A DNA stretch of 62,286 nucleotides from Planctomycetota bacterium (lineage in GTDB: Bacteria; Planctomycetota; Phycisphaerae; Tepidisphaerales; Tepidisphaeraceae), in the NCBI GenBank assembly GCA_039182125.1, contig JBCDCH010000019.1, positions 1 to 62,286 on the forward strand, read 5' to 3'. Position 1 is the stretch's first letter. Every line of letters begins with the position of its first letter. Below are positions 2,849 to 17,747 of the stretch, in pieces. The position numbers and the translations under genes were made by a program. The notes under the pieces are model-generated. The model saw only the letters and a program-made list of their open reading frames with translations, was not told the DNA's origin and did not search any database.

Positions 2849-4411
2849 TCAGATGTTGTGGAAAGCCAAGCTTTCTGGGAGCCGCGGGTCGCTGGCGGGC
2901 ACCAACCGGTGCGCCGTGAGGTTGCCCAGGGCGTAGAACGCGAAGATCCCGCCGACGCCGACCGTCGCGAGGATCGGCACCACCGGCACCTTGTACCAAA
3001 GCCCGCCGGGCATCTCCGGCATGATCAGCCAGTAGATGTCGATCCAGTGGAAGATCAAAAGCCACACACCCCAGAACGAGAGCAACACACGGTTGCGCTT
3101 GACGTGCCGACTCAACAACCCGGCAAACGGGATGATGAAGTGACCGACCAGCACCGCCGCAGCCACGATCGTCCAGAAGCCCGCCGCGTAGATCGTGCCC
3201 TGGGCGGTGATCGCGAGGTTCTCGCTCACCATCGACGCGCCACGCCGGGCGAACCACGTGCTCTCCTCGGCGAGGGCGCCGTACCAGATCAGCATGTACT
3301 GGCTGAAGGCGATGTACCCCCAGAAGAACACGAACGCGAAAAGGAACTTACCGATGTCGTGAAGGTGCTCGGTCGTGACGGCGTCCTTGAGCAGGCCCTT
3401 GCCGAGCATGACCGAGTAGGCGATCGCCATGGTCGCGAAGATCGCCACGGCCGAGCCGGCGAAGAAGTAGACCGCGATGATCGTCGAGTACCAGTGCGGA
3501 TCGACGGCCATGATCAGGTCGAACGCCGCCAGCGAAACCAGCAACGAGAACAACAGGAAGCCCGGATAGCTCCGAGCTCGCATCTTGATCGAAAGCTCGG
3601 GGTCCTTGGCCGTGTCCTGCTTGACCGACGTGCGGTAGTACCAGTTGCCCAGCACGAGCAACCCGCCGAGGTAGATCAGCAGCCGACCGGTCCAGAACGG
3701 GCCGTTGAGGTAAGCGGATTTACCCTCGGTGTACTCGTCGTAGATGAAGTGCTTGTAAACCGCATCGACGGTGGCGACCTGGTCGAGCTCGGTGAACGGC
3801 TTGGCGACGTGATGATCGCCCGCGTGATGGTCACCGGCGGCATCCGCGGCGACGTACTCGGCCGGGAAGTCGTTGGCGGAGACTTCCTCGCCGCTGCCGT
3901 GATCGTCACCGTGATCGTGCCTGTCGCTGTCATCATCGCCGTGACCGCCGGCGTACGGATCGCCGGGGCCGGACGCCCAGGGGTAGAGGTTGGGCATCTT
4001 CTCGAACATCTTGTGCGCGGCCCAGTTCTCGCCGGCCACCTCGGTGTCGACCTTGGCGATCTCGATCCGCCCGGGCAGGAACACCGACACCACCAACGGC
4101 AACGCCAGCAACACGAGGATCGGGAACGACCCCGCCAGCGCTTCGGGCACGCGCCGCACCACGACCGACCAGCCGGCCTTGGTCGCGTGCTGCAGCATCA
4201 CCACGAACAGCCCGCCCACCGCGAAGCTCAGGCAAAACACATACGCCATCAGGTACGACAGGTAGAACTGCCGAAGCCCACCGAAGAACCAGCAGGTGAT
4301 GAACGCACTGATCAGCCCGATCACGCCGCCGGCGAGCAGGAAGAACTTGAGCCCGTCGGCATTGAGCTTCTCGTTCACGGAGTCGGGCGGGGTGGTGGGG
4401 GCGTGGGCCAT
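2849..4411 (-). CDS. actF: Alternative complex III membrane subunit ActF
   Basis: 520 residues from the ATG at 4411 (MAHAPTT); the longer open frame upstream would overlap actE. It is a polytopic protein with about ten helices, related to ActC/NrfD-type quinone-binding subunits. The loop near the middle is strikingly rich in His and Asp (a DDDSDRHDHGDDHGS stretch), which could bind metal or be a flexible linker. It is the second large membrane subunit of the quinol:cytochrome c oxidoreductase, following actE by 47 bases. Confidence 0.92.
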   Translation of the reverse strand: MAHAPTTPPDSVNEKLNADGLKFFLLAGGVIGLISAFITCWFFGGLRQFYLSYLMAYVFCLSFAVGGLFVVMLQHATKAGWSVVVRRVPEALAGSFPILVLLALPLVVSVFLPGRIEIAKVDTEVAGENWAAHKMFEKMPNLYPWASGPGDPYAGGHGDDDSDRHDHGDDHGSGEEVSANDFPAEYVAADAAGDHHAGDHHVAKPFTELDQVATVDAVYKHFIYDEYTEGKSAYLNGPFWTGRLLIYLGGLLVLGNWYYRTSVKQDTAKDPELSIKMRARSYPGFLLFSLLVSLAAFDLIMAVDPHWYSTIIAVYFFAGSAVAIFATMAIAYSVMLGKGLLKDAVTTEHLHDIGKFLFAFVFFWGYIAFSQYMLIWYGALAEESTWFARRGASMVSENLAITAQGTIYAAGFWTIVAAAVLVGHFIIPFAGLLSRHVKRNRVLLSFWGVWLLIFHWIDIYWLIMPEMPGGLWYKVPVVPILATVGVGGIFAFYALGNLTAHRLVPASDPRLPESLAFHNI

Positions 4412-4458: not shown

Positions 4459-5319
4459 CTAGCGGGCCGCGGCCTGCTCGGTGTCCGTTTCCTCCGCCGG
4501 CTCTTCCACCACCGGCGGCTTGCCGTTGGTCAGTGCCGGCTGGACCGGGGCGTTGGCGACGAGCGACGGGTCGACCTCGCCGGCCGGCACCGCTTGCGAG
4601 AGTTGCAACGCCCGGACGTAGGCCACCACGGCCCAGCGATCCTTGGGGTCGCGGATGAGCGTGCCGTAGCCGGCCATGTTGCGAATGCCGTTGTTGACCG
4701 TGTTGTACAGGTGTCCGTCGGCCCGGCCCAGACGGGTTTCGTCGTGCAGGTTGCTGGGTGTAACCCAAAGGGCGTTCTGGCCCTTGACCGCACGGACGTG
4801 GATCGGGCCGTTCCCGTAGCCGTCGTACCCGTGGCACAGCCAGCAGAATCGGTTGTACAACTCTTGGCCACGCTTCATGAACTTTTCGTCGACCTCAAGG
4901 CCGTCGGGCATGCCCTCGACCCAGGTAACGTTGCCTTGGCCGTCCATGACGTAGCCGAGGGCGTATTTCTCATCTTCGATCAGCTCGCCGCGGGCGACGG
5001 TGCCGGGCACGGGCAGCCGCATGGCCCGACCGTCCTCGAAGACCGGCGACGGGGCCTGGGCCTTGTACTTGGCCTGGTTATCCATATCGAGGAACAGGTG
5101 CGGCCGGGGATCAGGGCTTTTGGCAAAGCGGTAGTACACGCTCCAGGTGATCGGGATGAACGACGCGATGATCCCCGCAACCGCGAACCCGAGCAGCAGG
5201 AACGGCGGCCGACGGAATCGACGCAACGCACCGATCGCAAAGCTGAACGCCGGGTTTTGCAACGCGCTGCGCATCAACCCTTTCGGGGCGTAATCGTGAT
5301 CGAGGGGAGTGCGGGACAT
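4459..5319 (-). CDS. actE: Alternative complex III monohaem cytochrome c subunit ActE
   Basis: 286 residues. An N-terminal anchor helix (about 39-60) is followed by a periplasmic cytochrome c domain with one CWLCH haem motif (159-163) and a candidate axial Met in the NMAGYG segment. The C-terminus is a Glu/Pro/Thr-rich tail. ActE is the monohaem electron carrier of alternative complex III and probably lies near the exit of the chain toward the oxidase. It sits between actD and actF in the standard order. Confidence 0.93.
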   Translation of the reverse strand: MSRTPLDHDYAPKGLMRSALQNPAFSFAIGALRRFRRPPFLLLGFAVAGIIASFIPITWSVYYRFAKSPDPRPHLFLDMDNQAKYKAQAPSPVFEDGRAMRLPVPGTVARGELIEDEKYALGYVMDGQGNVTWVEGMPDGLEVDEKFMKRGQELYNRFCWLCHGYDGYGNGPIHVRAVKGQNALWVTPSNLHDETRLGRADGHLYNTVNNGIRNMAGYGTLIRDPKDRWAVVAYVRALQLSQAVPAGEVDPSLVANAPVQPALTNGKPPVVEEPAEETDTEQAAAR

Positions 5320-5366: not shown

Positions 5367-6047
5367 TCAGTCCTTGACCACTTCGATCGCCAACGGCGAC
5401 GAGTCCTCAAGGATGTCGCGGGCCTGGTCGAACTTCTTGTCCTTGGCGTCGATCACGACGAAAAAGCGGTCGTCGGTGACCCGGCGAAAACGTTCATGTT
5501 TGAACAGCGGGTTGTAGAGCATCGGCAGCCCGTTGAGCAGCAGCATGCCGAGGCCAGCCGTGAAGGCCGCGGCGAGAATCGTGGTCTCGAAGATCACCGG
5601 GATGTATGCCGGCAGCGAGTTCAGCGGCTTGCCCGAGATCAGGTATTCGTACGGTGCGAGTGAGAGCAGCGAATCGAAGGAGCCGAACGCGCCCTGGGTG
5701 TACATCGTGAGGAAGAACCCGCCGGCCATGCCCGAGAGCCCCGCGCCCAGCACGATCCACGGCAGGATCGTCGGCTTGATGCCGATGACATCGTCGATGC
5801 CGTGGATGGGAAAGGGCGTGTGGACGTCGAACTTGGTGATCCCGGCTTCGCGGACGGCCTTGGCGGCGGCGACGACGCCGTCGACCGTGTCGTACTCGCC
5901 GAAGATGCCGACCGTTTCCTCGCGCTCCTGGTCGAGCGATGAGTCGATCGAGTAATCGAGGGAGTCCGGTGTTGAGAGCGGGCTCGTTTGGCGGCGCAGC
6001 TCGACGTCGGCGGTCTCGAGGGTGGGGTTGTCGTCAGTGGTGCTCAT
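5367..6047 (-). CDS. actD: Alternative complex III subunit ActD (DUF3341)
   Basis: 226 residues. The N-terminal part is soluble and contains the family signature around GIFGEYDTVDGVVAAAKAV and FDVHTPFPIHGIDD. Two transmembrane helices follow (around 95-115 and 150-175), then a short cytosolic tail. DUF3341 proteins are found almost only in alternative complex III operons, where ActD is a structural, cofactor-free subunit. The gene follows actC after 21 bases. Confidence 0.93.
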   Translation of the reverse strand: MSTTDDNPTLETADVELRRQTSPLSTPDSLDYSIDSSLDQEREETVGIFGEYDTVDGVVAAAKAVREAGITKFDVHTPFPIHGIDDVIGIKPTILPWIVLGAGLSGMAGGFFLTMYTQGAFGSFDSLLSLAPYEYLISGKPLNSLPAYIPVIFETTILAAAFTAGLGMLLLNGLPMLYNPLFKHERFRRVTDDRFFVVIDAKDKKFDQARDILEDSSPLAIEVVKD

Positions 6048-6068: not shown

Positions 6069-7559
6069 TTACTTCTCGGGGTGCATGTCCTCTTTGGCTT
6101 CGGGGTGAGCGTTTGTCTCGTGGGTCGAGTGGCCGATGTGGGCCTGGGGCATGATCGACTTGACCTCCGCCAGCGCGATGATCGGGCCGACGCGAACGAA
6201 CAGAAGCATGTTCGTGAAGAACAGCCCGAACGTGCCGGCGAACATCGCCCAGTCGACCCACGTCGGCCAGAACGCGCCCCAGCTGCTGGGCAGGAAGTCG
6301 GCTTCGAGCGAGATGATGATGATCACGAACCGCTCGAACCACATCCCGAAGTTCACGCACATCGCCACCGCCATCGTGACCCAGAGGTTCTTACGCATCC
6401 GGCTCGACCAGAGCACCTGCGGGGCGATCACGTTGCAGAACATCATCGCGTAGAAGAACAACGCCTTGTCGCCGAACGGGCGGTAGAGGAACTGGAACTG
6501 CTCGTAGTGGTGCCCGGAGTACCAGGCGATGAAGAACTCGGTGATGTAGGCGAAGGACACGATGCAGCCCGTGAGCAACAGGATGCGGTTCATGTTTTCG
6601 ATGTGGCGTTTGGTGATCACGCCCTCGAGGCCGAAGAGCCAGCGGGCGGGGATCGCCAGGGTCAGCACCATCGCGAAGCCGCCGAACACGGCACCGGCGA
6701 CGAAGTACGGCGGGAAGATCGTCGTGTGCCAACCGGGCAGCTGCGAGACCGCGAAGTCGAACGACACCACCGAGTGGACCGAGAGCACCAGCGGCGTGCA
6801 GAGCGCCGCGAGGAGCAGGTACATCTTCTCGAAGCGGTGCCAGTGGCGGGCCGAGCCGTTCCAGCCGAGCGAGAGGGCGCCATAAGCGACCTGCTGGATG
6901 CGGGTCTTGGCTTTGTCACGCAGCGTCGCCAAGTCCGGGACCATGCCCAGGTACCAGAACAACGCCGAGACGGACGCATAGGTCGACACCGCGAACACGT
7001 CCCACATCAGCGGCGAGCGGAACTGCGGCCACATGGCCATTTGGTTCGGGATCGGGAACAGCCAGTACGCCAGCCAGGGCCGACCGATGTGGATGCCCGG
7101 GTACATGCCCGCACAGATGACCGCGAAGATCGTCATCGCTTCGGCAAAGCGGTTGATCGACGTACGCCAGTTCTGACGGAGCAGGAAGAGGATCGCGGAG
7201 ATCAGCGTGCCGGCGTGGCCGATGCCGACCCAGAACACGAAGTTCACGATCGGAAAGCCCCACGCGACGGGGTTGTTGTTGCCCCACACACCCGGACCCG
7301 CCGCGAAGAGATAGATCTGTGTCAGCGGCAGCAGTTGCAGCAGCGTGAACGCGACGGCAAACGCCCCGAGCCAGCGGTAGGACGGCAGCTTGAAGTTCTG
7401 CCGGGTCGTGACCTCGGTCACCGCGCCGAACGACTCGGCCGGTGGTCCGAGCACCAACGGCTCACGCCCGCTGACCGGCTCGCCCAGATTGTCCGGGTAG
7501 AACGGCTTGTACCCGCGCATGCGGTCGATGAGTCCGGGCTGTGAGGGGATCGTTGCCAT
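6069..7559 (-). CDS. actC: Alternative complex III NrfD-like quinol-binding membrane subunit ActC
   Basis: 496 residues with about ten hydrophobic segments and the NrfD/PsrC family pattern. Conserved features include the FRSPLMWD segment and the His-bearing [18 protein letters not shown] segment. ActC holds the quinol oxidation site and passes electrons to the iron-sulfur chain of ActB. The C-terminus is hydrophilic and His/Glu-rich. The gene starts 51 bases after actB. Confidence 0.95.
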
Positions 7560-7610: not shown

Positions 7611-10600
7611 TTATGCCTGTTCCACGTCCGTCTTCTCGCTACCGCCTTCCGACTTATCTTCTTCGGGCTTGTTGCGAATCACCGCGAGGTACTTCGTGCG
7701 CGGTCGGGTGTTGAGTTCTTCCAGGACCCCGTAGGCGCGGGGCTTGCGTTGGTTTTTCGTGACGGTCTGGTCGGCCTGGTTGAGGTCACCGAAGACGATC
7801 GCCTGAGTCGGGCAAGCCTGCTGGCAGGCGGTGATGATCTCCATATCGTCGACGATCTCGCTGTCGGCGTTGCCCTTGGCCCACTCGTTGCGCTTGTTGA
7901 TCGTGACCGCCTGGATGCGCTGGGTGCAGTAGGTGCATTTCTCCATGACGCCACGCATGCGGACCGAGACGTCGGGGTTCATGACCATCCGCTGGACCGC
8001 GTCGATCGCGTCGCCCTGCTGTTGGTCGGGGAGCCAGGGGTACAGGGCCGAGAGCGTGCCTTTGCGCGGATCCTTGTAGTGCCAGTCGAGGTAGTTGAAC
8101 CGGCGGACCTTGTACGGGCAGTTGTTCGAGCAGTACCGCGTGCCGATGCAGCGGTTGTAGACCATCGTGTTGAGGCCTTCGGTGTCGTGCACGGTGGCGG
8201 CGACGGGGCAGACCTGCTCACACGGCGCGTTCTCGCAGTGCACGCACATCATCGGCTGGTGCGTGACCTCCGGACGCTCGGCGTCCGGATCGAGGTTGGT
8301 CTTCTTGTCGTCGGTCCACTTGGTCTTGAAGTACCGGTCGACGCGCAGCCAGTGCATCTCGCGGTTCATGTGGACGCCTTCCTTGCCGACGACGGGGATG
8401 TTGTTCTCCGACTGGCAGGCGATGACGCAGGCGTTGCAGCCGACGCAGGCGTTCATGTCGATGGACATGCCCCAGGCGTGGGGGGTGTTGAACTGGTTGG
8501 GCGGCTCCCAGAGTTGCAGGGCCACGCCGCCGTGCTGGCCCTTGTGCGGGGCGTACTTGTTCTTCTGGAAGTCGGCGAGCGTGGCTTCGCGAAGCACTTT
8601 GCCGGGCTTGCCGATCGTGCCGAGTCGCTTGTTCTTGCCGTACTGCTTGACATCACCGACGATGTAGTGTTCCTGGGTGGAGTCCAGCACGTGGGTGTCG
8701 GAAGTCGGCTCGACGACGGCGTCAGCGAGGTAGAAGTTGCCGGCCGAGCGGAGTGGATAAACGTCGAAGCCCACGGGTGACACGTTGGCCGCTGTGAGGC
8801 CGCCGATGTTGCCCGCGCGGGTCCGGCCGAAGCCGACCGCCACGCTCACGCATCCCCTGGGTTGGCCGGGCAAGAGGTAGACCGGCAGCTTCACCGTCGT
8901 GCCGTTGACCGTCACGTTGGCCATCGGGGCGTCGTCGGTCTTGTACCTGCCCGGGTCGATGCCGAGTACCTCGCGGGCATCGGCCAGGCTCATCAGCAGG
9001 GCGTTGTCCCAGGTGAGTTTGGTCAGCGGGTCGGGCGCTTCCTGGAGCCAGCCGTTGTTGGCATGGGTGCCGTCGTAGATCGTGTCGTGCTGGACAAACC
9101 GCAATGCCATGCCTTGCGGCTCGGGCATCGCTGGGGCCGGCACGTTTTGGGGTACCGCGTTGGCCGTGGCAAACCCGGCAAGTGGGCGCAGGCCGTCGTG
9201 CAGTACCTTTTGCCACGCCTTCTTGTCCAGTCCCCAGGTCTGAGCCCACGTCTGGGCGACCGCGGCCATCCCGTCGCCCAAGTCCTGGCCGAGCAGCATG
9301 CCCAGCGTTTGGACCATCGACATGCCGTTGTACAGCGGCAGGATGAGCGGTTGCTGGACCGACGGCGTGCCGTCGTAGGCCAGCGCGTCGCCCCAGCATT
9401 CGAGGTAGTGGGCCCGCGGCAGGTGCCACTTGCAGACGCCCGAGGTTTCGTTGTCGTCCTGCGAGAGGTGGGCGGTGAACGGAACCGAGATGAGCAAGTC
9501 ACGGAAGGCCAGCTCGGCCGGAGCGTCGTAGGCGGGGTTGCCGCCGAGGATGACCAGGCCGTTGATCTCGCCAGCGCTGAGTTTGCCGGCCAGTTCGACG
9601 ATTTCCTCGGGTGACGGCGGCAGTGCGTCTTCCGGAACGTAGAGCAACGTGATCGTGGTGCCGACCGAGCCGATTTTGGCATTAAGTGCCATGCAGGCGG
9701 CCTGCACATCGACGGGCAGGTGGGCACCGGCAGTCACGACGCCTCGCGCGCCAGCCGCTTTGAGATCCTTGGCGGCGCTCTTCACGAACTTTGTGGCGTA
9801 TTCGTCGAGGCCGCTCACCGTGCCGCCGTCGAGCGCGGTGGTCAGGGCGTTGATCATCGCGACGAGCTTGGCCGGGTTGGCCGGCTCGCGGACGTCGGCG
9901 GCCGCGCCGGTGTTGGTCAGCGTCGTCTCGGCGACGTAGGTGCGCGACATCGTGCCCGTTTCGTCGACGGCGCGGCGCGACTTGGCCCAATCGCCGGCGT
10001 AGCGGATGGCTGCCGGGTGCAGGCCGAGGAAATCGTCGTCGAAGCTGACGATGACGTCGGCCTGATCAAGTTTGAGCATCGGTCGACCGGCAACGCCGAA
10101 GGCGGCTTTGGCCGCTTCGGTTTCCTGCCACCGGCTCAACGGTTCGTAGCGGTAGACCTCGACGCCGGATGCTTCGAGCTCGGCCAATAGCCGGCGGGCC
10201 GTGGGCGAGGAGGTGTGCTCGGCGAGAACCGCGACTTGGCCGGTCGACTTGGCGTCGGCGAAGGCTTGCTCGAACTCCGCGAACGAAGCCCGACGGGCTT
10301 GCGGGCCGCTACGGTCGATGACGTTCTTGGATCGGTCGGGGTCGTAGAGGTCGAGAATGCTCGCCTGGGTGATCGTGCCCGAAGCGCCCCACCTGCCGCC
10401 GGCGGTCGCGGTCATCGGGTGTTCGGGGTTGCCCTCGAGCTTGATCGGTCGGCCATCGAAGCTCGACACGAGCACCGGGCGACCCACGCCGCCGTATTCG
10501 TGGATCGAGGCGTAGTACTCCGGCACGCCGGGGACGCGATCGCGCGGCATCGCCGAGTAGGGGGCGAGCACTTCCTTGGGCCAACGCCGGCAGCCGCTAA

Positions 10601-10811
10601 GGGTCATGCCCGCCAGCGCCATCCCGGCCGCGGCGTACTTCATGAACCCGCGACGCGACATCCGCCGCAGCTCGTCGGGGTCGTAGTCCTGAAACTCGTT
10701 GGCCAGCTTCTCCTGAATCTCCGGCGAGTCGGCATATTCGGCCAGGCTGCGCCAGTATCCCGCGTTGGGCGATTCGATCGGCGATACGGATGGGTCAGAA
10801 GGCTGGTGCAT
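7611..10811 (-). CDS. actB: Alternative complex III ActB: molybdopterin-oxidoreductase-like plus Fe-S subunit
   Basis: About 1066 residues from the ATG at 10811; a TTG at 10844 is the alternative start. A Tat motif SRRGFMK lies unusually far in (about residues 52-58), followed by a hydrophobic stretch and a lipobox-like LSGC, so export as a folded Fe-S protein with lipid anchoring is plausible. The N-terminal two thirds resemble a molybdopterin oxidoreductase fold; in this family the fold lacks the cofactor. The C-terminal third is a four-cluster ferredoxin domain with CVGCNAC, CVHCENAPCEQVC, CIGTRYCSNNC, CTYC and CQQAC motifs. It is the electron conduit from ActC to the cytochromes. Confidence 0.95.
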   Translation of the reverse strand: MHQPSDPSVSPIESPNAGYWRSLAEYADSPEIQEKLANEFQDYDPDELRRMSRRGFMKYAAAGMALAGMTLSGCRRWPKEVLAPYSAMPRDRVPGVPEYYASIHEYGGVGRPVLVSSFDGRPIKLEGNPEHPMTATAGGRWGASGTITQASILDLYDPDRSKNVIDRSGPQARRASFAEFEQAFADAKSTGQVAVLAEHTSSPTARRLLAELEASGVEVYRYEPLSRWQETEAAKAAFGVAGRPMLKLDQADVIVSFDDDFLGLHPAAIRYAGDWAKSRRAVDETGTMSRTYVAETTLTNTGAAADVREPANPAKLVAMINALTTALDGGTVSGLDEYATKFVKSAAKDLKAAGARGVVTAGAHLPVDVQAACMALNAKIGSVGTTITLLYVPEDALPPSPEEIVELAGKLSAGEINGLVILGGNPAYDAPAELAFRDLLISVPFTAHLSQDDNETSGVCKWHLPRAHYLECWGDALAYDGTPSVQQPLILPLYNGMSMVQTLGMLLGQDLGDGMAAVAQTWAQTWGLDKKAWQKVLHDGLRPLAGFATANAVPQNVPAPAMPEPQGMALRFVQHDTIYDGTHANNGWLQEAPDPLTKLTWDNALLMSLADAREVLGIDPGRYKTDDAPMANVTVNGTTVKLPVYLLPGQPRGCVSVAVGFGRTRAGNIGGLTAANVSPVGFDVYPLRSAGNFYLADAVVEPTSDTHVLDSTQEHYIVGDVKQYGKNKRLGTIGKPGKVLREATLADFQKNKYAPHKGQHGGVALQLWEPPNQFNTPHAWGMSIDMNACVGCNACVIACQSENNIPVVGKEGVHMNREMHWLRVDRYFKTKWTDDKKTNLDPDAERPEVTHQPMMCVHCENAPCEQVCPVAATVHDTEGLNTMVYNRCIGTRYCSNNCPYKVRRFNYLDWHYKDPRKGTLSALYPWLPDQQQGDAIDAVQRMVMNPDVSVRMRGVMEKCTYCTQRIQAVTINKRNEWAKGNADSEIVDDMEIITACQQACPTQAIVFGDLNQADQTVTKNQRKPRAYGVLEELNTRPRTKYLAVIRNKPEEDKSEGGSEKTDVEQA

Positions 10812-10851
10812 TGCGGCTCTGCTGTCTCGAATCTGAGTCTTCAAGTCCCGT

Positions 10852-11613
10852 TCAACGGTGACACGTGGAGCAGGCGGTCATGTAGGCCTGGTCCTTGATG
10901 TTGTACTGCTCGACAAGAATCTTGCCGACGCGGAGTTGGGCTTCCTCGGGGGTTTCGTCGCCCATGACGACCAGGTCGCCCGGGCCGCCTTCTTCGGTGC
11001 CGCCCTTGCCGAGGTGGTAGTCCATGTTGGTCACTTCGCTGATCGGGCGGATGAACTTCTCCGGCTGGCGGTGACAGTCGAGGCACCAGCCCATGTTCAG
11101 CGGCTCGGCCTGGTAGACGCCTTCCTCGCCCATGTGATCGACCCGGCCGTGGCAGCTGTAGCAGCCGATGCCCTTGTTGATGTGGGCCGAGTGGTTGAAG
11201 TACGAGTAGTCGGCCAGGTCGTGAACCTTGGTCCATTCGATCGGCTGGCCGGTTTCCCAGGATTCGCGGACCGGGGCGAGCTTGAGCGATTCGGTCTCGA
11301 CAGCCGTGTGACAGTTCATGCAGGTCTGCGTCGACGGGATCGCCGCGAAGCCGGCTTCGTCGACGGTCGTGTGGCAGTACCGGCAGTCCATCCCGAGTTG
11401 GCCGACGTGCAACGCGTGGCTGTACGGCACCGGCTGCTCCGGGCGGTAGCCCACGTTGAGCGTGGTCGGGTTCAAGGCACTGAAAACGACCGTCGGAACA
11501 TAAACCGCAGCCCCGACGGCGTTTAACACGATGAATGGCAGAAGAAAGTTGGCCCACCGCGGGAACTGAAAACGGCCTGCGGGCTTGTCGGAGGGTTGAG
11601 AGGACTTGGCCAT
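10852..11613 (-). CDS. actA: Alternative complex III pentahaem cytochrome ActA
   Basis: 253 residues. An N-terminal transmembrane helix (FLLPFIVLNAVGAAVYVP region) is followed by a periplasmic domain with five CXXCH motifs in the order CRYCH, CMNCH, CYSCH, CLDCH and CSTCH. A five-haem ActA matches characterised alternative complex III. It is the first gene of the operon; actB follows 40 bases downstream. The complex functionally replaces cytochrome bc1, and no bc1 genes are visible here. Confidence 0.95.
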   Translation of the reverse strand: MAKSSQPSDKPAGRFQFPRWANFLLPFIVLNAVGAAVYVPTVVFSALNPTTLNVGYRPEQPVPYSHALHVGQLGMDCRYCHTTVDEAGFAAIPSTQTCMNCHTAVETESLKLAPVRESWETGQPIEWTKVHDLADYSYFNHSAHINKGIGCYSCHGRVDHMGEEGVYQAEPLNMGWCLDCHRQPEKFIRPISEVTNMDYHLGKGGTEEGGPGDLVVMGDETPEEAQLRVGKILVEQYNIKDQAYMTACSTCHR

Positions 11614-11734: not shown

Positions 11735-11806
11735 GATCGGCCCGGCTCACTGCACCCCATTACTCCCGAAGATGACTGTGGCAATCCGCCACACCAAGCC
11801 GGCCCG

Positions 11807-11881: not shown

Positions 11882-12490
11882 TTAGCGGCGACGACGCACC
11901 AGACCAAGGCCGGCGACCGAAAGCAGGCCGAGGCTCGCCGGTTCGGGGATGGCGGTCAACGAGATGTTGGCCACGGTCACGGCCAGCGCGTCCGTACCGC
12001 CGAAGGGCGTCTGGAAGCTGGCTTCGGTGATGCCGGTGCCGGAGAACGCTCCGTCACCGCTGTTGAAGAAGAAGCTCTCGATCGGCAGGCTCAGCGTGGT
12101 GAAGGTCGAGCCGTTCAGGTCGGCCGTGGCAAAGCCGTAGCTGAAAACTTCGCCGTCTTCGATGAATGCGACGACCAGTGTGTCGCCGACGTTGCCGTCT
12201 TCCAGCTTGGCGGTGACGTTGATGGTGCTGCCGGCGGCCGGGACGGGGTTGGCGTCAAGGCTGACATTGGTGCCGGTGCCGCCGAAGTTCGAGGCCGGGG
12301 CGTCGACACCGGGAATGATCGCGGTGAGGCCGTCAGGGCCGGGGGTGGTGTTGCCGCCGAAAGCGTCGAACTCGAAGTCAGGTGCGACGCTGCCGGTGTA
12401 GTCGACGGCGATGACTTGGGCACCGGCCGAGGCGGTGACGGCGAAAGCGGTCGCAGCGGCGACCGAAGCGATGGATGTGCGGATGGACAT
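11882..12490 (-). CDS. PEP-CTERM sorting-domain secreted protein
   Basis: 202 residues with a Sec signal peptide (MSIRTSIASVAAATAFAVTASAGA) and a Gly/Asp/Thr-rich beta-type body. The C-terminus has the full PEP-CTERM signature: IPEPASLG, a hydrophobic helix, then RRRR at the end. Such proteins are normally processed by an exosortase and sent to the surface or matrix; no exosortase lies in the window. The body has no recognisable catalytic motif. A strong AGGAG Shine-Dalgarno site precedes the ATG. It has its own promoter and terminator, so it is a single-gene unit. Its leader closely resembles that of the second PEP-CTERM gene at 30645-31466. Confidence 0.9.
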   Translation of the reverse strand: MSIRTSIASVAAATAFAVTASAGAQVIAVDYTGSVAPDFEFDAFGGNTTPGPDGLTAIIPGVDAPASNFGGTGTNVSLDANPVPAAGSTINVTAKLEDGNVGDTLVVAFIEDGEVFSYGFATADLNGSTFTTLSLPIESFFFNSGDGAFSGTGITEASFQTPFGGTDALAVTVANISLTAIPEPASLGLLSVAGLGLVRRRR

Positions 12491-12800: not shown

Positions 12801-13316
12801 ATGGCCACCGCATCCGTCCCCGCCGTACCAACCACGAAACTGGACACCGACCAACGCGAGGCGGTCAATATGGCCATGCTTACCGCGTGGGGCGTTTATC
12901 TCGGGCTTGGCGGGCTTCCGGCTCTTGCCAGCGTCATCGGGATCTGGACGTCGCTTCTGGCCGAGACTTCCAGCCCCGAGGTCAACATGTGGTTCATGCT
13001 TGCCTCGTGCGCGTGGTTGACTTTCGGTGTGCCAGCGGCCCTGCTCTTTCGCCGGTCCGCGTTTTCGGAGTTCTACAAAGGCAAGCCCGTCTCGCCGGCC
13101 AACTTTCTCAAGGGGTCGATTCCGCTGTGGGTGGTGCTCGTCACGGGTGGCCTCATCGCACAACTCGGCTGGATCGTCAGCGGCACCCCGGTGGTCTCGG
13201 GCTTCATTGCCGCTTGTGCGTTGATCGTCTTCCTCGTCTTCTATCCGACCGGCGTCGCGATGCTTCATCCGGTGGGCGGACACGATGACGCAGCCGTTTA
13301 CGAAGAACCGGCGTAG
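12801..13316 (+). CDS. Four-helix membrane protein of unknown function upstream of regB
   Basis: 171 residues from the ATG at 12801. Four hydrophobic segments lie around residues 20-50, 60-80, 105-127 and 132-152. Loops are short, and the C-terminus is His/Asp-containing and acidic (VGGHDDAAVYEEPA). No family is recognised. It ends 12 bases before regB, so co-transcription is likely and it may supply or modulate the signal seen by RegB, but that rests on position only. An upstream in-frame start at 12714 would add a non-hydrophobic, low-quality extension and is not favoured. Confidence 0.8.
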   Translation: MATASVPAVPTTKLDTDQREAVNMAMLTAWGVYLGLGGLPALASVIGIWTSLLAETSSPEVNMWFMLASCAWLTFGVPAALLFRRSAFSEFYKGKPVSPANFLKGSIPLWVVLVTGGLIAQLGWIVSGTPVVSGFIAACALIVFLVFYPTGVAMLHPVGGHDDAAVYEEPA

Positions 13317-13328
13317 TCTCACTTTTCC

Positions 13329-14699
13329 ATGACCAAATTGAGCACCGAGCGTTCGCCATCAATCGCGCTGACGTGGTTGGAACGTCTGCGCTGGGTTGCG
13401 GTCGCGGGGCAGCTATTGGCGGTGCTGGTTGCCGAGATGGCGGTGGGGTTGACCGTGCATTTGCCGGCGGTGTTCGCCGTGGTGTCGGTGACTGTCCTGA
13501 CGAATCTCGCACTGCTCTGGTCGCGGCGTCGCCGGATGGTCGGCCCGTCGGTCGCGCGGGTCGCCGTGACGGGCAAAGGTCGTTCGATCTCCGATCGGCT
13601 CGTCCCGGCGGTGATTGTTCTCGACGTGATGCTGCTGACGATCATGCTCGCGTTCACCGGCGGTGCCGAGAACCCGTTCTCGATGCTGTACCTCGTGCAC
13701 GTCGCCCTGGCGACGGTCATGCTCGGCACGCGCGGCGCCTGGGCGGTGCTGTTCCTATCGGCCCTGTGTTACGGGTCGCTCACGATCTGGTGGGTGCCGT
13801 TTAACGAGGACGCATTTTCCCGCAGCGTTCGTGTCGGGGGGCAGTGGGTCGCACTCCTGTTGATCGGCGGTTTGATCGTCTACTTCACGGCACGGGTGCT
13901 GGCCGCGTTGCGACGCCGCGAGCTTGATCTTGCGGAGGCGCACGAGCGCGCCCTCCGCAACGAAGGTCTGACCACGCTCGCCGCCGGTGCCGCCCATGAA
14001 CTCGGCACGCCGTTGGCGACGATCAACATCGTCGTCGGGGAACTCGAGCACCAAACCGACGGCGACGTCCGCGAGGACATCCGGCTGATCAAGTCCGAGG
14101 TCGATCGCTGCCGCAACGTCATTGACCGCATGCGTGGCGAGATCGCCGAGGGGGCGGCGCTCAGCAAGCGGCACGCCGAATGGCAAGATGTTCTTGCGGG
14201 GGTGCAGCGTTCGCTGGGCGATCGTGCCGAACGGCTCGCGGTGGTCGCGACCGATGTGCCGCCGATCGGCGTGCAGCCGAGGGTGCTCGAGCAAGCGCTG
14301 GTCATCATGATCCGCAACGCCTTCGACGCTTCGCCGCCCGATGCGTGGGTGACGCTCACGGCCAAGCAGGTCGACGGCACGGTTCGGTTGGAGGTGCGTG
14401 ACGATGGCGAGGGGATGAGCGCGGAAGTGCTCCGTCGTGCCGCCGAGCCGTTCTTCACGACCAAGCCACCGGGCAAGGGGATGGGGCTCGGGCTTTTTCT
14501 TGTACGACTCACGGCGGAACGGAACGATGGCGTGCTTGAAATCGACTCGACGCCGGGCGAAGGTACGGCGGTGACGATGCGCCTGCCGCTCGCCGCGGGC
14601 GCGGCGACCCGGCCGCACGTCGAACCCCCAGCGGCGGGGCGAAATGCCGCACTTGATGAGTCGGTGGATCAGCCCATGAACGCGACAAACGGGCCTTAA
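13329..14699 (+). CDS. regB: RegB/PrrB-type redox sensor histidine kinase
   Basis: 456 residues. The N-terminal half contains about six transmembrane helices. The RegB quinone-site heptapeptide GGxxNPF is present as GGAENPF (111-117). The dimerisation/H-box reads AAGAAHELGTPLATI with phospho-acceptor His223, a RegB hallmark. Cys261 (VDRCRNV) lies 38 residues after the His, where RegB kinases carry their redox-active cysteine. The catalytic domain has N (MIRNAFDAS), G1 (VRDDGEGM) and G2 (GKGMGLGLF) boxes. RegB senses quinone-pool redox state and controls respiration, photosynthesis and carbon or nitrogen fixation in Proteobacteria. The cognate regA follows 20 bases downstream. The C-terminus extends beyond the ATPase domain with a Pro/Ala-rich tail. 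Confidence 0.93.
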   Translation: MTKLSTERSPSIALTWLERLRWVAVAGQLLAVLVAEMAVGLTVHLPAVFAVVSVTVLTNLALLWSRRRRMVGPSVARVAVTGKGRSISDRLVPAVIVLDVMLLTIMLAFTGGAENPFSMLYLVHVALATVMLGTRGAWAVLFLSALCYGSLTIWWVPFNEDAFSRSVRVGGQWVALLLIGGLIVYFTARVLAALRRRELDLAEAHERALRNEGLTTLAAGAAHELGTPLATINIVVGELEHQTDGDVREDIRLIKSEVDRCRNVIDRMRGEIAEGAALSKRHAEWQDVLAGVQRSLGDRAERLAVVATDVPPIGVQPRVLEQALVIMIRNAFDASPPDAWVTLTAKQVDGTVRLEVRDDGEGMSAEVLRRAAEPFFTTKPPGKGMGLGLFLVRLTAERNDGVLEIDSTPGEGTAVTMRLPLAAGAATRPHVEPPAAGRNAALDESVDQPMNATNGP

Positions 14700-14719
14700 T
14701 CAGATAAGATTGTCGCGTT

Positions 14720-15316
14720 ATGGCCACGCTCACAATCCCCACGTCCGAGATCACCCCCATGACTGAGACGACCGATGACAACCACCGGCTGATGCTCGTT
14801 GACGACGACGAGATTTTCCGTCGCCGACTGGCCAAAGCCATGGATGCCCGCGGCTTCGAGGTCTGCCAGGCCGGCGATGCTGCTGAGGCCGTCAAGGTCG
14901 CTAAGCAGCAGCAACCCCACTACGCGTTGCTCGACCAACGCATGCCCGGCAAATCCGGCCTCGAACTCATCGGCGATCTCGCCAAGCTCGACCCTGACAT
15001 GCAGATCGTTCTGCTCACCGGCTACGGCTCCATCGCCCACGCCGTCGAGGCGACCCGTGCCGGCGCGATCGACTATCTGACCAAGCCCGTCGACGCCGAC
15101 CAGATCGTTGCGGCGTTCGAGCGGAGTCGAGACGTCGACAAGGCCGCCCGCCTCGCCGCCGACGAGACCACGCCGAGCCTGGCCCGCGTCGAGTGGGACT
15201 ACATGCAGCGCATCCTCCACGATTGCGGCGGCAACATCAGCCAGGCCGCCCGCAAGCTCGGCATCCACCGCCGGTCGTTGCAGCGCAAGCTCGCGAAGTA
15301 CCCGCCGGTCGATTGA
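14720..15316 (+). CDS. regA: RegA/PrrA-type response regulator with Fis-like HTH
   Basis: 198 residues from the ATG at 14720; an ATG at 14759 (MTETTDDN) would give a more usual length of 185. The receiver domain has the acidic pocket LVDDDE, phospho-acceptor Asp72 (LLDQRMPG), the switch Thr in LLTGYG and Lys in YLTKPV. The C-terminus carries the RegA-type Fis HTH (CGGNISQAARKLGIHRRSLQ). It is paired with RegB immediately upstream. Targets cannot be read here, but the adjacent respiratory operon is an obvious candidate. The end converges on the methyltransferase gene with only three bases between stops. Confidence 0.93.
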   Translation: MATLTIPTSEITPMTETTDDNHRLMLVDDDEIFRRRLAKAMDARGFEVCQAGDAAEAVKVAKQQQPHYALLDQRMPGKSGLELIGDLAKLDPDMQIVLLTGYGSIAHAVEATRAGAIDYLTKPVDADQIVAAFERSRDVDKAARLAADETTPSLARVEWDYMQRILHDCGGNISQAARKLGIHRRSLQRKLAKYPPVD

Positions 15317-15319
15317 CGA

Positions 15320-16384
15320 TCACGCAAACAACGCCGGCTCTTCCGTGACCACGCGTTCCGCTACGCTCGGCGCGGCGACGACGTAAAGGAACTCCTTGTT
15401 CCGCAGGTGGCTGACCTTGCCGACTTTCTTGCCGGTCAGGTCATGAATGCCGATCTGGGCACCGACGTAACGCTTGAAGTCGTTCTCGAGCGTGACCACC
15501 GCGCGGCCCGGGAACACCTCGGCGAGCAGCGCCTCCATCGCAACCCGATCGAGGTAGCCCTCGTTGTTGAACGAAATGATCAGCGCTTGGCACCGGATGT
15601 TGCGGAGGACTTGCTCGAAGGCTTCGGCGAACTTCGGTCGGCTGTTGAACAAGCTCCGCCTTTCCCGCACGTCGACGCGTTTGCACGCCTTGCCGTAGAC
15701 CGCCGGCTTGTCCCAGCGGACCAGCGATTCCCAAACGTGGTAGTTGCCCAAGTACGAGTGTTGGTTGTACGGAGGGTCGAGGTAGACGACATCGGCCTCG
15801 AGCTTGCGGGCGGCATCGACGGCGTCGAGTTGATGAGCTTCGCCTTTGCCGTGTCGGGCACGAGGTAGCAGGACGGGGACGCGGAGCTCAAGGGCGTTGT
15901 GCGAGCGCGGTGCCCACTGCTTGAGATACGCCATCTGCACGCCGGTGGTCGAGTCGACGCGATCGGCCGCCTCCATCAACGACACGAGGATGACCGCTTC
16001 GAGTTCCGGCGGCAGGCCTTTCGCCGCGATCGCTTCACGGATGGCGTCGATCCGTGCGCCGTTCTTCGGCTGAAAGAACCATGATTTCTCGCAGAACGTC
16101 TCGGTGAAGTACCCCGGCTCGCCCCGGAGCGCGTTGAACTCCATCACCAGCTTCGCCGCGTCGTCGGCCCAATCGTCATCGGCCTGCACGTAGCACCGCG
16201 CCAACGTTGCCGCGTAAGCATTGTGATCGTTGCTCCGTACCGCGTACCCCGCCGCCTTGAGCGCATGCCCGACCCGCGCCGTTCCGCTGAACAGGTCCGT
16301 CACGGTCCGCACATCGGCAAGCTTGCCCACGGCGTTGAGAATCACTGGCAACAGCGTGCGCTTGGACCCGAGGTACTTGATCAT
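15320..16384 (-). CDS. D12-class DNA adenine-N6 methyltransferase (Dam-like, orphan)
   Basis: 354 residues. The start MIKYLGSKRTLL is the conserved opening of D12-class enzymes. The SAM-binding motif is DLFSGTARVGHAL (30-42) and the catalytic motif is DPPY (203-206). It should methylate adenine in DNA using S-adenosylmethionine. The ATG overlaps the stop of the upstream gene as ATGA, which suggests translational coupling. No restriction endonuclease lies nearby, so it looks like a solitary regulatory or protective methylase, or one whose partner is elsewhere. Its recognition sequence cannot be deduced. Confidence 0.9.
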   Translation of the reverse strand: MIKYLGSKRTLLPVILNAVGKLADVRTVTDLFSGTARVGHALKAAGYAVRSNDHNAYAATLARCYVQADDDWADDAAKLVMEFNALRGEPGYFTETFCEKSWFFQPKNGARIDAIREAIAAKGLPPELEAVILVSLMEAADRVDSTTGVQMAYLKQWAPRSHNALELRVPVLLPRARHGKGEAHQLDAVDAARKLEADVVYLDPPYNQHSYLGNYHVWESLVRWDKPAVYGKACKRVDVRERRSLFNSRPKFAEAFEQVLRNIRCQALIISFNNEGYLDRVAMEALLAEVFPGRAVVTLENDFKRYVGAQIGIHDLTGKKVGKVSHLRNKEFLYVVAAPSVAERVVTEEPALFA

Positions 16385-16848
16385 CCGCCCACCACCCGCA
16401 GGGCGACGGCTCTGGGTGGTTTGACGTAGCCGTAGTCGCGCAGCTCCATGCGGATCGCGTCGGGCAGTGGCATGCGTGTCGCGCCGCCGGCGATCCACGT
16501 CGCGGCGAGTTCGCCGTTCCAGGCGATCTCCAGGGTCTTACCCGGTGCTTCGGCGACGGTTTCGATCGTGAGCTGCGGGTTCATGCGGTGGGCCATCGCG
16601 ACGTTGTCACCGAGGCGGGCGTCGGCGAGGCTCGCCAGCCACTGTGCGGTAAGCGGCGGGACGATGCGGTCCTTGGTCGGTGTCTCGACCGGCAGCATGT
16701 ACGGCACTTCCGGCCGGGCGGTGTCGGGCAGGGCCACCCGTCGGCCGTCCTCGGTGTAGCGCTTGTACCACACCCGCACCGCGCCTGGAACGCTGCCGAC
16801 GATCAGGATGGCCACGATGATCCAGTTGATCTTCGTTTCACGCCGCAT
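16381..16848 (-). CDS. Membrane-anchored protein of unknown function
   Basis: 155 residues with an N-terminal transmembrane helix (about 8-25) and a soluble remainder without recognised motifs. Its stop overlaps the methyltransferase start by four bases (ATGA), so the two are translated together. It is divergent from the gene at 16926 with a 77-base spacer. A TACTAT box (16854-16859) sits so close to the ATG that it would give an almost leaderless message; there is no good -35 partner. Confidence 0.8.
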   Translation of the reverse strand: MRRETKINWIIVAILIVGSVPGAVRVWYKRYTEDGRRVALPDTARPEVPYMLPVETPTKDRIVPPLTAQWLASLADARLGDNVAMAHRMNPQLTIETVAEAPGKTLEIAWNGELAATWIAGGATRMPLPDAIRMELRDYGYVKPPRAVALRVVGG

Positions 16849-16925: not shown

Positions 16926-17747
16926 ATGCGGAAGCTCAAGCGAACGGTCCTGGCCACCTGTGTTCTTGGCGTCGTTGGCGCCGTCGCGCTCTCGAACAGC
17001 TGGGCGGCCCAGAATCGTCAGACGGCACGCGGCCCGGAGGCTTACCTCTCCAATGCCGACGTTCAAGCCATCCGCCGCGCCGAGCTGCGCGACGATGACA
17101 CGGGGGTCGGTTTCCGCTTCACCAACAACCTGATCCGCCGGTTCGTCGAAAGCAAGCAGGGCATGGAGCTGCGCGACTTCTCCCGCGGCACGGACCTGCA
17201 AAAGGCGTTGTACATCATCCGCAACACCGACGACCCCGACTTGCTCAACGATCTGGTCATCCGCAACGACCCGGCGTCGATGCGGGTCTGGCGGCAGAAC
17301 GTGCAGCCGATCGTGTTGCAGGGCTGCGCGAGCGCCGGCTGTCACGGCGGCACCGAGCCGGTCGGCGGGCTCCAACTGTACCGAAACGCCCAGAACGAGA
17401 ACGTCGCCTACACCAACTTCTACAACCTGGCGACGTTCGAGCAGGAAGTCGAGGGCGAGGGGATGTTCGGCGGCGGGATGAAGAAGATGATCGACCGTCA
17501 GCGGCCGATCGATTCGCTGCTGCTCCAGTACTCGCTACCGGCCAACGTTGCCGACACGCCTCATCCCAAACCGCCGGGCGGTCAGGACATCGCGATGTTC
17601 CGCAGCACCAACGACCAACGCTTCCGTGCGATCGGCCTGTGGATCGAGCAGGGCTTGGTGCCGATGGACAACAAGGGCTACGACGTCGAGTTCGCCATGC
17701 CGGGTCAGGGCTCGACGACCACGCCGTCCACCCAGCCCGCCGAGTGA
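16926..17747 (+). CDS. Secreted protein with a CX4CH cytochrome-like motif
   Basis: 273 residues: a signal peptide (VLATCVLGVVGAVALSNSWA) and a soluble domain. Around residues 138-144 is CASAGCH, followed by GG and a region of Trp, His and Pro residues. CXnCH motifs with widened spacing resemble the haem sites of planctomycete cytochrome-c-like (PSCyt) domains. If haem is bound, the protein would be a periplasmic electron carrier or sensor. The C-terminus is Thr/Ser/Pro-rich. It stands alone or heads a short unit with the small gene eight bases downstream. Confidence 0.85.
   Translation: MRKLKRTVLATCVLGVVGAVALSNSWAAQNRQTARGPEAYLSNADVQAIRRAELRDDDTGVGFRFTNNLIRRFVESKQGMELRDFSRGTDLQKALYIIRNTDDPDLLNDLVIRNDPASMRVWRQNVQPIVLQGCASAGCHGGTEPVGGLQLYRNAQNENVAYTNFYNLATFEQEVEGEGMFGGGMKKMIDRQRPIDSLLLQYSLPANVADTPHPKPPGGQDIAMFRSTNDQRFRAIGLWIEQGLVPMDNKGYDVEFAMPGQGSTTTPSTQPAE

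Follow-up and report, generated by a model that had tools for sequence, protein, structure and literature searches.

The sensor kinase and response regulator encoded in the window, the whole 62,286-nucleotide stretch analysed here and one contig of a 4.13-Mb assembly, form a RegB/RegA system. Its main conserved target in Planctomycetota is probably (probability about 0.8) the operon of alternative complex III (ACIII), Sco and cytochrome c oxidase. The regB gene (13,329–14,699, + strand) encodes a RegB-type sensor histidine kinase of 456 amino acids with an N-terminal membrane domain, and regA (14,720–15,316, +) encodes a RegA-type response regulator of 198 amino acids with a receiver domain and a Fis-type helix-turn-helix (HTH). 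They are preceded by tm4 (12,801–13,316, +), which encodes a four-helix membrane protein of 171 amino acids. Since the gaps on this strand are only 12 bp (tm4-regB) and 20 bp (regB-regA), the three genes probably form one transcription unit, of which tm4 is the first gene.

The best NCBIfam model for the kinase was ActS/PrrB/RegB (NF033792, E 5.8e-60). The match covered residues 8–420, nearly the full length and including the membrane domain, and exceeded the next unrelated model by about 100 bits. The score of 203 bits was below the curated cut-off of 350 bits. RegBs of Pseudomonas (230 bits), Burkholderia (211 bits) and Nitrosomonas (284 bits) were also below this cut-off, as were those of Myxococcota, and among the RegBs scored it was exceeded by alphaproteobacterial group 1 alone (about 590 bits). 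The cut-off marks group 1 only. The low score is therefore no objection to a RegB identity, because the cut-off is also missed by group 2 RegBs, Pseudomonas RoxS among them. Phylogeny had been set beforehand as a test, and a maximum-likelihood tree of 74 rows was constructed. The RegBs of Proteobacteria, Myxococcota, Verrucomicrobia and Planctomycetota were split from ZraS/PilS-like and other kinases with support of 100/96, and the window kinase fell inside this RegB family. Support was 96/97 for the set including alphaproteobacterial group 1 and beta-/gammaproteobacterial group 2 RegBs, and the window RegB grouped with its own taxonomic family (99/95).

We then located the motifs of RegB by alignment. 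The quinone-site heptapeptide GGAENPF was found at residues 111–117 (13,659–13,679, +), the phospho-acceptor His223 in AHELGTPLATI (13,995–13,997, +), and Cys261 38 residues past the phospho-His (14,109–14,111, +), all as the original prediction had described them. Both PMC9147068 and PMC8191878 assign GGXXNPF to a quinone site. Cys261 aligned with the redox-active proteobacterial Cys (Cys265 in R. capsulatus; PMC9147068), in the same column as the RCR Cys of alphaproteobacterial RegB. The predicted likeness to the redox-sensing layout of the proteobacterial kinase thus holds by column, and the spacing of 38 in the window RegB is due to a short loop deletion. GGxxNPF, the phospho-His and the Cys261 column were invariant across 15 planctomycete RegBs. 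GGXXNPF was present in the RegB rows of the alignment except the divergent L074, and the full motif was missing from the outgroup rows. Six transmembrane helices are expected of a RegB kinase; the hydropathy profile showed hydrophobic N-terminal 195 residues in which segments were merged. Pfam 6TM_PilS matched the kinase with E 1e-7, which, taken with the sub-cut-off NCBIfam score, could indicate a generic PilS/ZraS-like sensor of nitrogen or stress type that merely resembles RegB. However, ActS/PrrB/RegB was the best NCBIfam model by more than 100 bits with the membrane domain covered, accepted group 2 RegBs score alike (210–284 bits), and the partner is a receiver-Fis RegA and not a sigma-54 activator. 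Together with the tree placement and the motifs, the model and the partner refute a PilS/ZraS-like identity as far as sequence allows, and we regard it as hardly credible.

For the regulator, the best NCBIfam model was ActR/PrrA/RegA (NF033791, E 2.3e-52), matched over nearly the full length. Its 177.5 bits were below the curated cut-off of 250 bits, which was reached by no planctomycete RegA in the 392 genomes surveyed. The nearest solved structure was 3rqi. The protein has a receiver domain with the phospho-acceptor Asp72 (14,933–14,935, + by alignment), and the Fis HTH expected from the first reading was confirmed (PF02954, E 2e-15), with an HRRxLQR recognition helix. The alignment showed that the recognition helix NISxAARxLGxHRRxLQRKL is common to planctomycete and proteobacterial RegA. 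Cys169 (15,224–15,226, +) immediately precedes the HTH and aligns with alphaproteobacterial Cys156. In R. capsulatus, a copper- and oxygen-driven disulfide at Cys156 dimerises RegA (PMC9147068). The pre-HTH Cys had been described as a group 1 feature, yet it was seen in the window and in RegA proteins of L061–L100, was widespread in planctomycete and myxococcal RegA as well as alphaproteobacterial RegA, and was missing from the beta- and gammaproteobacterial RegAs examined. We saw no Sco linkage in the Myxococcota RegBA loci examined, and this weakens a strict link between the RegA Cys and Sco.

The actABCDEF-p107-sco-coxB-coxA operon lies on the − strand and begins with actA 1.7 kb from regB. 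The original prediction had placed the ACIII and caa3 operon and a sco gene near regBA, and sco indeed belongs to this operon, on the strand opposite to regBA and less than 12 kb from it. ActA (10,852–11,613, −) is the pentaheme cytochrome c of ACIII (Cytochrome_C7, five CXXCH, QrcA-like), ActB (7,611–10,844, −) a fused molybdopterin-like and Fe-S subunit, and ActC (6,069–7,559, −) an NrfD-like quinol-site subunit. The genes actD (5,367–6,047, −), actE (4,459–5,319, −) and actF (2,849–4,411, −) stand in an order that is kept in other planctomycetes. They are followed by p107 (2,420–2,743, −), encoding a small one-helix protein, sco (1,467–2,375, −), encoding a SCO1/SenC copper chaperone (PF02630 above cut-off), coxB (354–1,394, −; TIGR02866 above cut-off) and the start of coxA (1–282, −). 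CoxB has a single C-terminal CXXCH at residue 238, as in caa3 oxidases. Between actA and tm4-regB-regA lies a gene for a PEP-CTERM-anchored exported protein (11,882–12,490, −), after which come a terminator-like hairpin and then a promoter-like site proper to actA. An exported protein of 273 amino acids is encoded at 16,926–17,747 (+); its CASAGCHGG resembles a heme site with one residue too many, and Pfam and NCBIfam searches with this protein gave no match.

A survey of 392 planctomycete genomes was performed, in which RegA was called at E <= 1e-35 and ActC at E <= 1e-60. RegA was present in 34 genomes, with the best eight candidates scored per genome, and a full recheck of 15 genomes gave no full-length RegA; ActC was present in 220. 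ActC occurred in 30/34 RegA-bearing genomes compared with 190/358 others (Fisher p 3e-5). RegA was found without an ActC match at 1e-60 in G121, G148, G402 and G430 (L091, L100). In 19 of the 34 RegA-bearing genomes, from six families, one contig carried regBA and actA or actC no more than about 10 kb apart; several surveyed genomes were fragmented, which can only hide linkage. The commonest linked layout was regB-regA-actABCDEF-sco-coxBA on one strand, also seen in Planctomycetes bacterium Poly30. The window's family showed two linked layouts (divergent in the window, downstream in L064), and linkage was absent in most of its sampled members. No ACIII was seen near RegBA in the Myxococcota and Verrucomicrobia loci examined. 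The first reading had called RegBA best known from Proteobacteria, and it is there that the system has been studied, but its occurrence beyond them is not new. Homologues in Planctomycetacia, Verrucomicrobia and Acidobacteria already stand in a 2021 tree, as given in the accessible part of PMC8191878, and the presence of RegBA outside Proteobacteria, Planctomycetacia included, is on record there.

RegA regulators are expected to have target sites of the GNGRC-N5-GNCGC type at respiratory promoters, and half-sites of the published RegR/RegA type served as the starting point for a search of actA upstream regions. The discovery pattern, GYGRC-N5-GNCGC with the spacing fixed at five, was sought in the 450 bp before actA at 15 loci. 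It gave 14 sites there, compared with 1.1 expected from its frequency in the remainder of these loci. The pattern was then applied unchanged to held-out genomes, 20 RegA-positive and 44 RegA-negative. The box was found upstream of actA in 16/20 RegA-positive genomes (17 sites against 1.9 expected) and in 4/44 RegA-negative genomes (4 sites against 3.1 expected), a difference in presence with a Fisher p of 3e-8. Enrichment was confined to RegA-bearing genomes. Within-family permutation of the box against RegA gave p 0.0075, so shared ancestry accounts for only part of the association. The presence of the box tracked RegA inside families f1 and f43, and the box was kept at actA where regBA is far from ACIII, for example in 6/6 cases in family f37.

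The box consensus GCGACANNNTGCCGC agreed with GNGRCRTTNNGNCGC of B. japonicum RegR (quoted in PMC5506826). It also agreed with R. capsulatus ChIP sites that fit the pattern, GCGACCGTTCGTCGC at ccoN and GCGACAGGACGCCGC (PMC5359404). One genome in which RegA was not detected, G414 (L264), kept a good box upstream of actA, which possibly reflects recent loss of regBA or an assembly gap. The same genome could be cited for a different regulator that co-occurs with RegA and binds the dyad, as a correlated motif does not reveal which protein binds it. The match to experimentally mapped proteobacterial RegA sites (PMC5359404, PMC5506826), the recognition helix conserved between planctomycetes and Proteobacteria, and the way in which the box follows RegA within f1 and f43 all speak for RegA instead, and we consider another regulator very unlikely.

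We next scanned the window with a matrix derived solely from other genomes. Rank 1 of the 62 kb was the candidate RegA box GCGAC-GATCG-GTCGC (GCGACGATCGGTCGC) at 2,813–2,827, in the 105-bp gap from actF to p107-sco-coxB. Rank 4 was the RegA-box-like palindrome GTGGC-AATCC-GCCAC (GTGGCAATCCGCCAC) at 11,778–11,792, upstream of actA between the hairpin and the promoter-like site. With its half-sites GTGGC and GCCAC, the actA-promoter site is a weaker variant and escaped the strict pattern. The chance of such scores in stretches of equal length was about 0.1% for the 2,813 gap and about 1.6% for the 11,778 region. Good matches were present in both gaps in the relatives G005, G009 and G012, and none in the RegA-lacking G013. 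A one-mismatch RegR box scan of the window fell below chance expectation; of the two scans, that with the matrix was the informative one. In the whole genome, the tight box gave 12 matches compared with 18 in the reversed control, and a broad regulon is therefore unsupported. The gap between the PEP-CTERM gene and tm4 contained no box, so autoregulation of the window regBA is likewise unsupported. In two distant genomes a good box was observed in the regB-regA interval (L098:9662–9676, L088:9573–9587), a hint that regA may be autoregulated there, unlike in the window.

The original prediction had suggested that RegA may control ACIII and caa3. The enrichment of a candidate box at the actA promoters of RegA-bearing genomes and the two window sites support this suggestion. 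The pair could instead be a true RegB/RegA that regulates other genes in this genome and whose proximity to ACIII in the window is incidental. In most sampled members of the window's family regBA does not adjoin ACIII, gene orientation varies between lineages, and a genome-wide search gave no excess of the tight box. Against this, ACIII linkage recurs in six families with two layouts within that of the window, actA keeps the box in genomes that carry regBA elsewhere, and intergenic gaps of the ACIII operon contain two of the four highest-ranking boxes in the 62 kb. Incidental proximity is unlikely, and control of the ACIII operon is the reading that we prefer.

For TM4, Pfam and NCBIfam searches gave nothing above cut-off, and a fold search against solved PDB structures returned no significant match. 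The structure model had four helices (pLDDT 77). The protein had been described as lacking a recognised homologue; this stood for Pfam and NCBIfam, but relatives were found in 11/60 related genomes. Five of them are directly upstream of regB, one (G012, L221) immediately precedes actA and is accompanied by p155, and the others adjoin genes that read as pyruvate:ferredoxin oxidoreductase-like or hydrogenase-like. By its gene neighbours, TM4 is a small uncharacterised family belonging to a respiratory setting, and it may have an accessory role in the membrane within the respiratory regulon of RegBA. The uncharacterised protein p155 (16,381–16,848, −) consists of one helix and a soluble part. It appears to travel with this respiratory setting, because its relatives stand upstream of TM4-regBA (L062, L066), regB (L069) or TM4-actA (L221).

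In R. capsulatus, RegB is inhibited by oxidised quinone at GGxxNPF but can autophosphorylate in the presence of quinol, and oxidation of its Cys turns the kinase off (PMC9147068). The window genome contains the menaquinone genes MqnA and MqnD, and a search of it for ubiquinone hydroxylase gave nothing above cut-off; menaquinone is therefore the quinone that RegB probably reads. Menaquinone is also the substrate oxidised by ACIII (PMC8552683). Family membership, motif conservation, gene linkage and the enrichment of the box in RegA-bearing genomes are observed; quinone and thiol sensing, phosphotransfer and DNA binding are inferred, and RegA could act as an activator or as a repressor. By analogy, membrane-seated RegB would read the redox state of the quinone pool, here menaquinone, through the GGxxNPF loop, and oxidation of Cys261 would probably modulate it. 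RegB would phosphorylate RegA at Asp72. RegA would occupy the GYGRC-N5-GNCGC dyad in front of actA and, in the window genome, a second one between actF and sco-coxBA, and would adjust act and sco-cox transcription so that the menaquinol-oxidising branch is fitted to the electron load. A fuller version remains speculative. In it, planctomycete RegB/RegA would be a menaquinone-reading rheostat dedicated to ACIII, the pre-HTH Cys of RegA would add copper and oxygen control matching the supply of Sco-assembled oxidase, and TM4 would tune RegB in the membrane.

These results indicate that what is new is the predicted target of planctomycete RegBA, ACIII. In the open literature, we found no paper that connects RegB, under this or its other names, with alternative complex III. 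If the assignment is true, RegBA is the first candidate regulator of alternative complex III, cultured planctomycetes offer an immediate test of its DNA motif, and a sensor known chiefly for ubiquinone also serves organisms that use menaquinone. The assignment further raises the question of whether RegBA follows the quinol-oxidising complex of whichever type, rather than a fixed gene set.

Among known systems, ZraS/PilS-like kinases share the multi-helix membrane input and the HisKA-HATPase core with the window RegB, but they lie outside the RegB clade, are without GGxxNPF and have the H-box HExxNPL. The homologues of Planctomycetacia, Verrucomicrobia and Acidobacteria in PMC8191878 belong to the same family, those of Planctomycetacia to the same phylum, and the accessible text of that paper names neither targets nor gene linkage nor DNA sites for any of them. 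Group 2 RegB/RegA of Beta- and Gammaproteobacteria, with RoxS/RoxR, have the same regB-regA order in one unit, a similar score and the motifs; they differ in forming a separate clade, in RegAs without the pre-HTH Cys, and in that ACIII linkage was not seen. Alphaproteobacterial group 1 (PrrB/PrrA, RegS/RegR, ActS/ActR) shares the GGxxNPF loop, the H-box and the redox-Cys column of RegB, the HTH and DNA box of RegA, the Cys just before the HTH, and a nearby Sco gene (PMC9147068). Group 1 scores about 590 bits against the RegB family model, whereas the window scores about 200 bits. In group 1, senC (sco) is co-transcribed with regA, whereas in the window sco is in the neighbouring act-sco-cox operon on the other strand. 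The window further differs in coming from a menaquinone organism and in its extra TM4 gene, and the conserved target, bc1/cbb3 in group 1, would be ACIII in planctomycetes.
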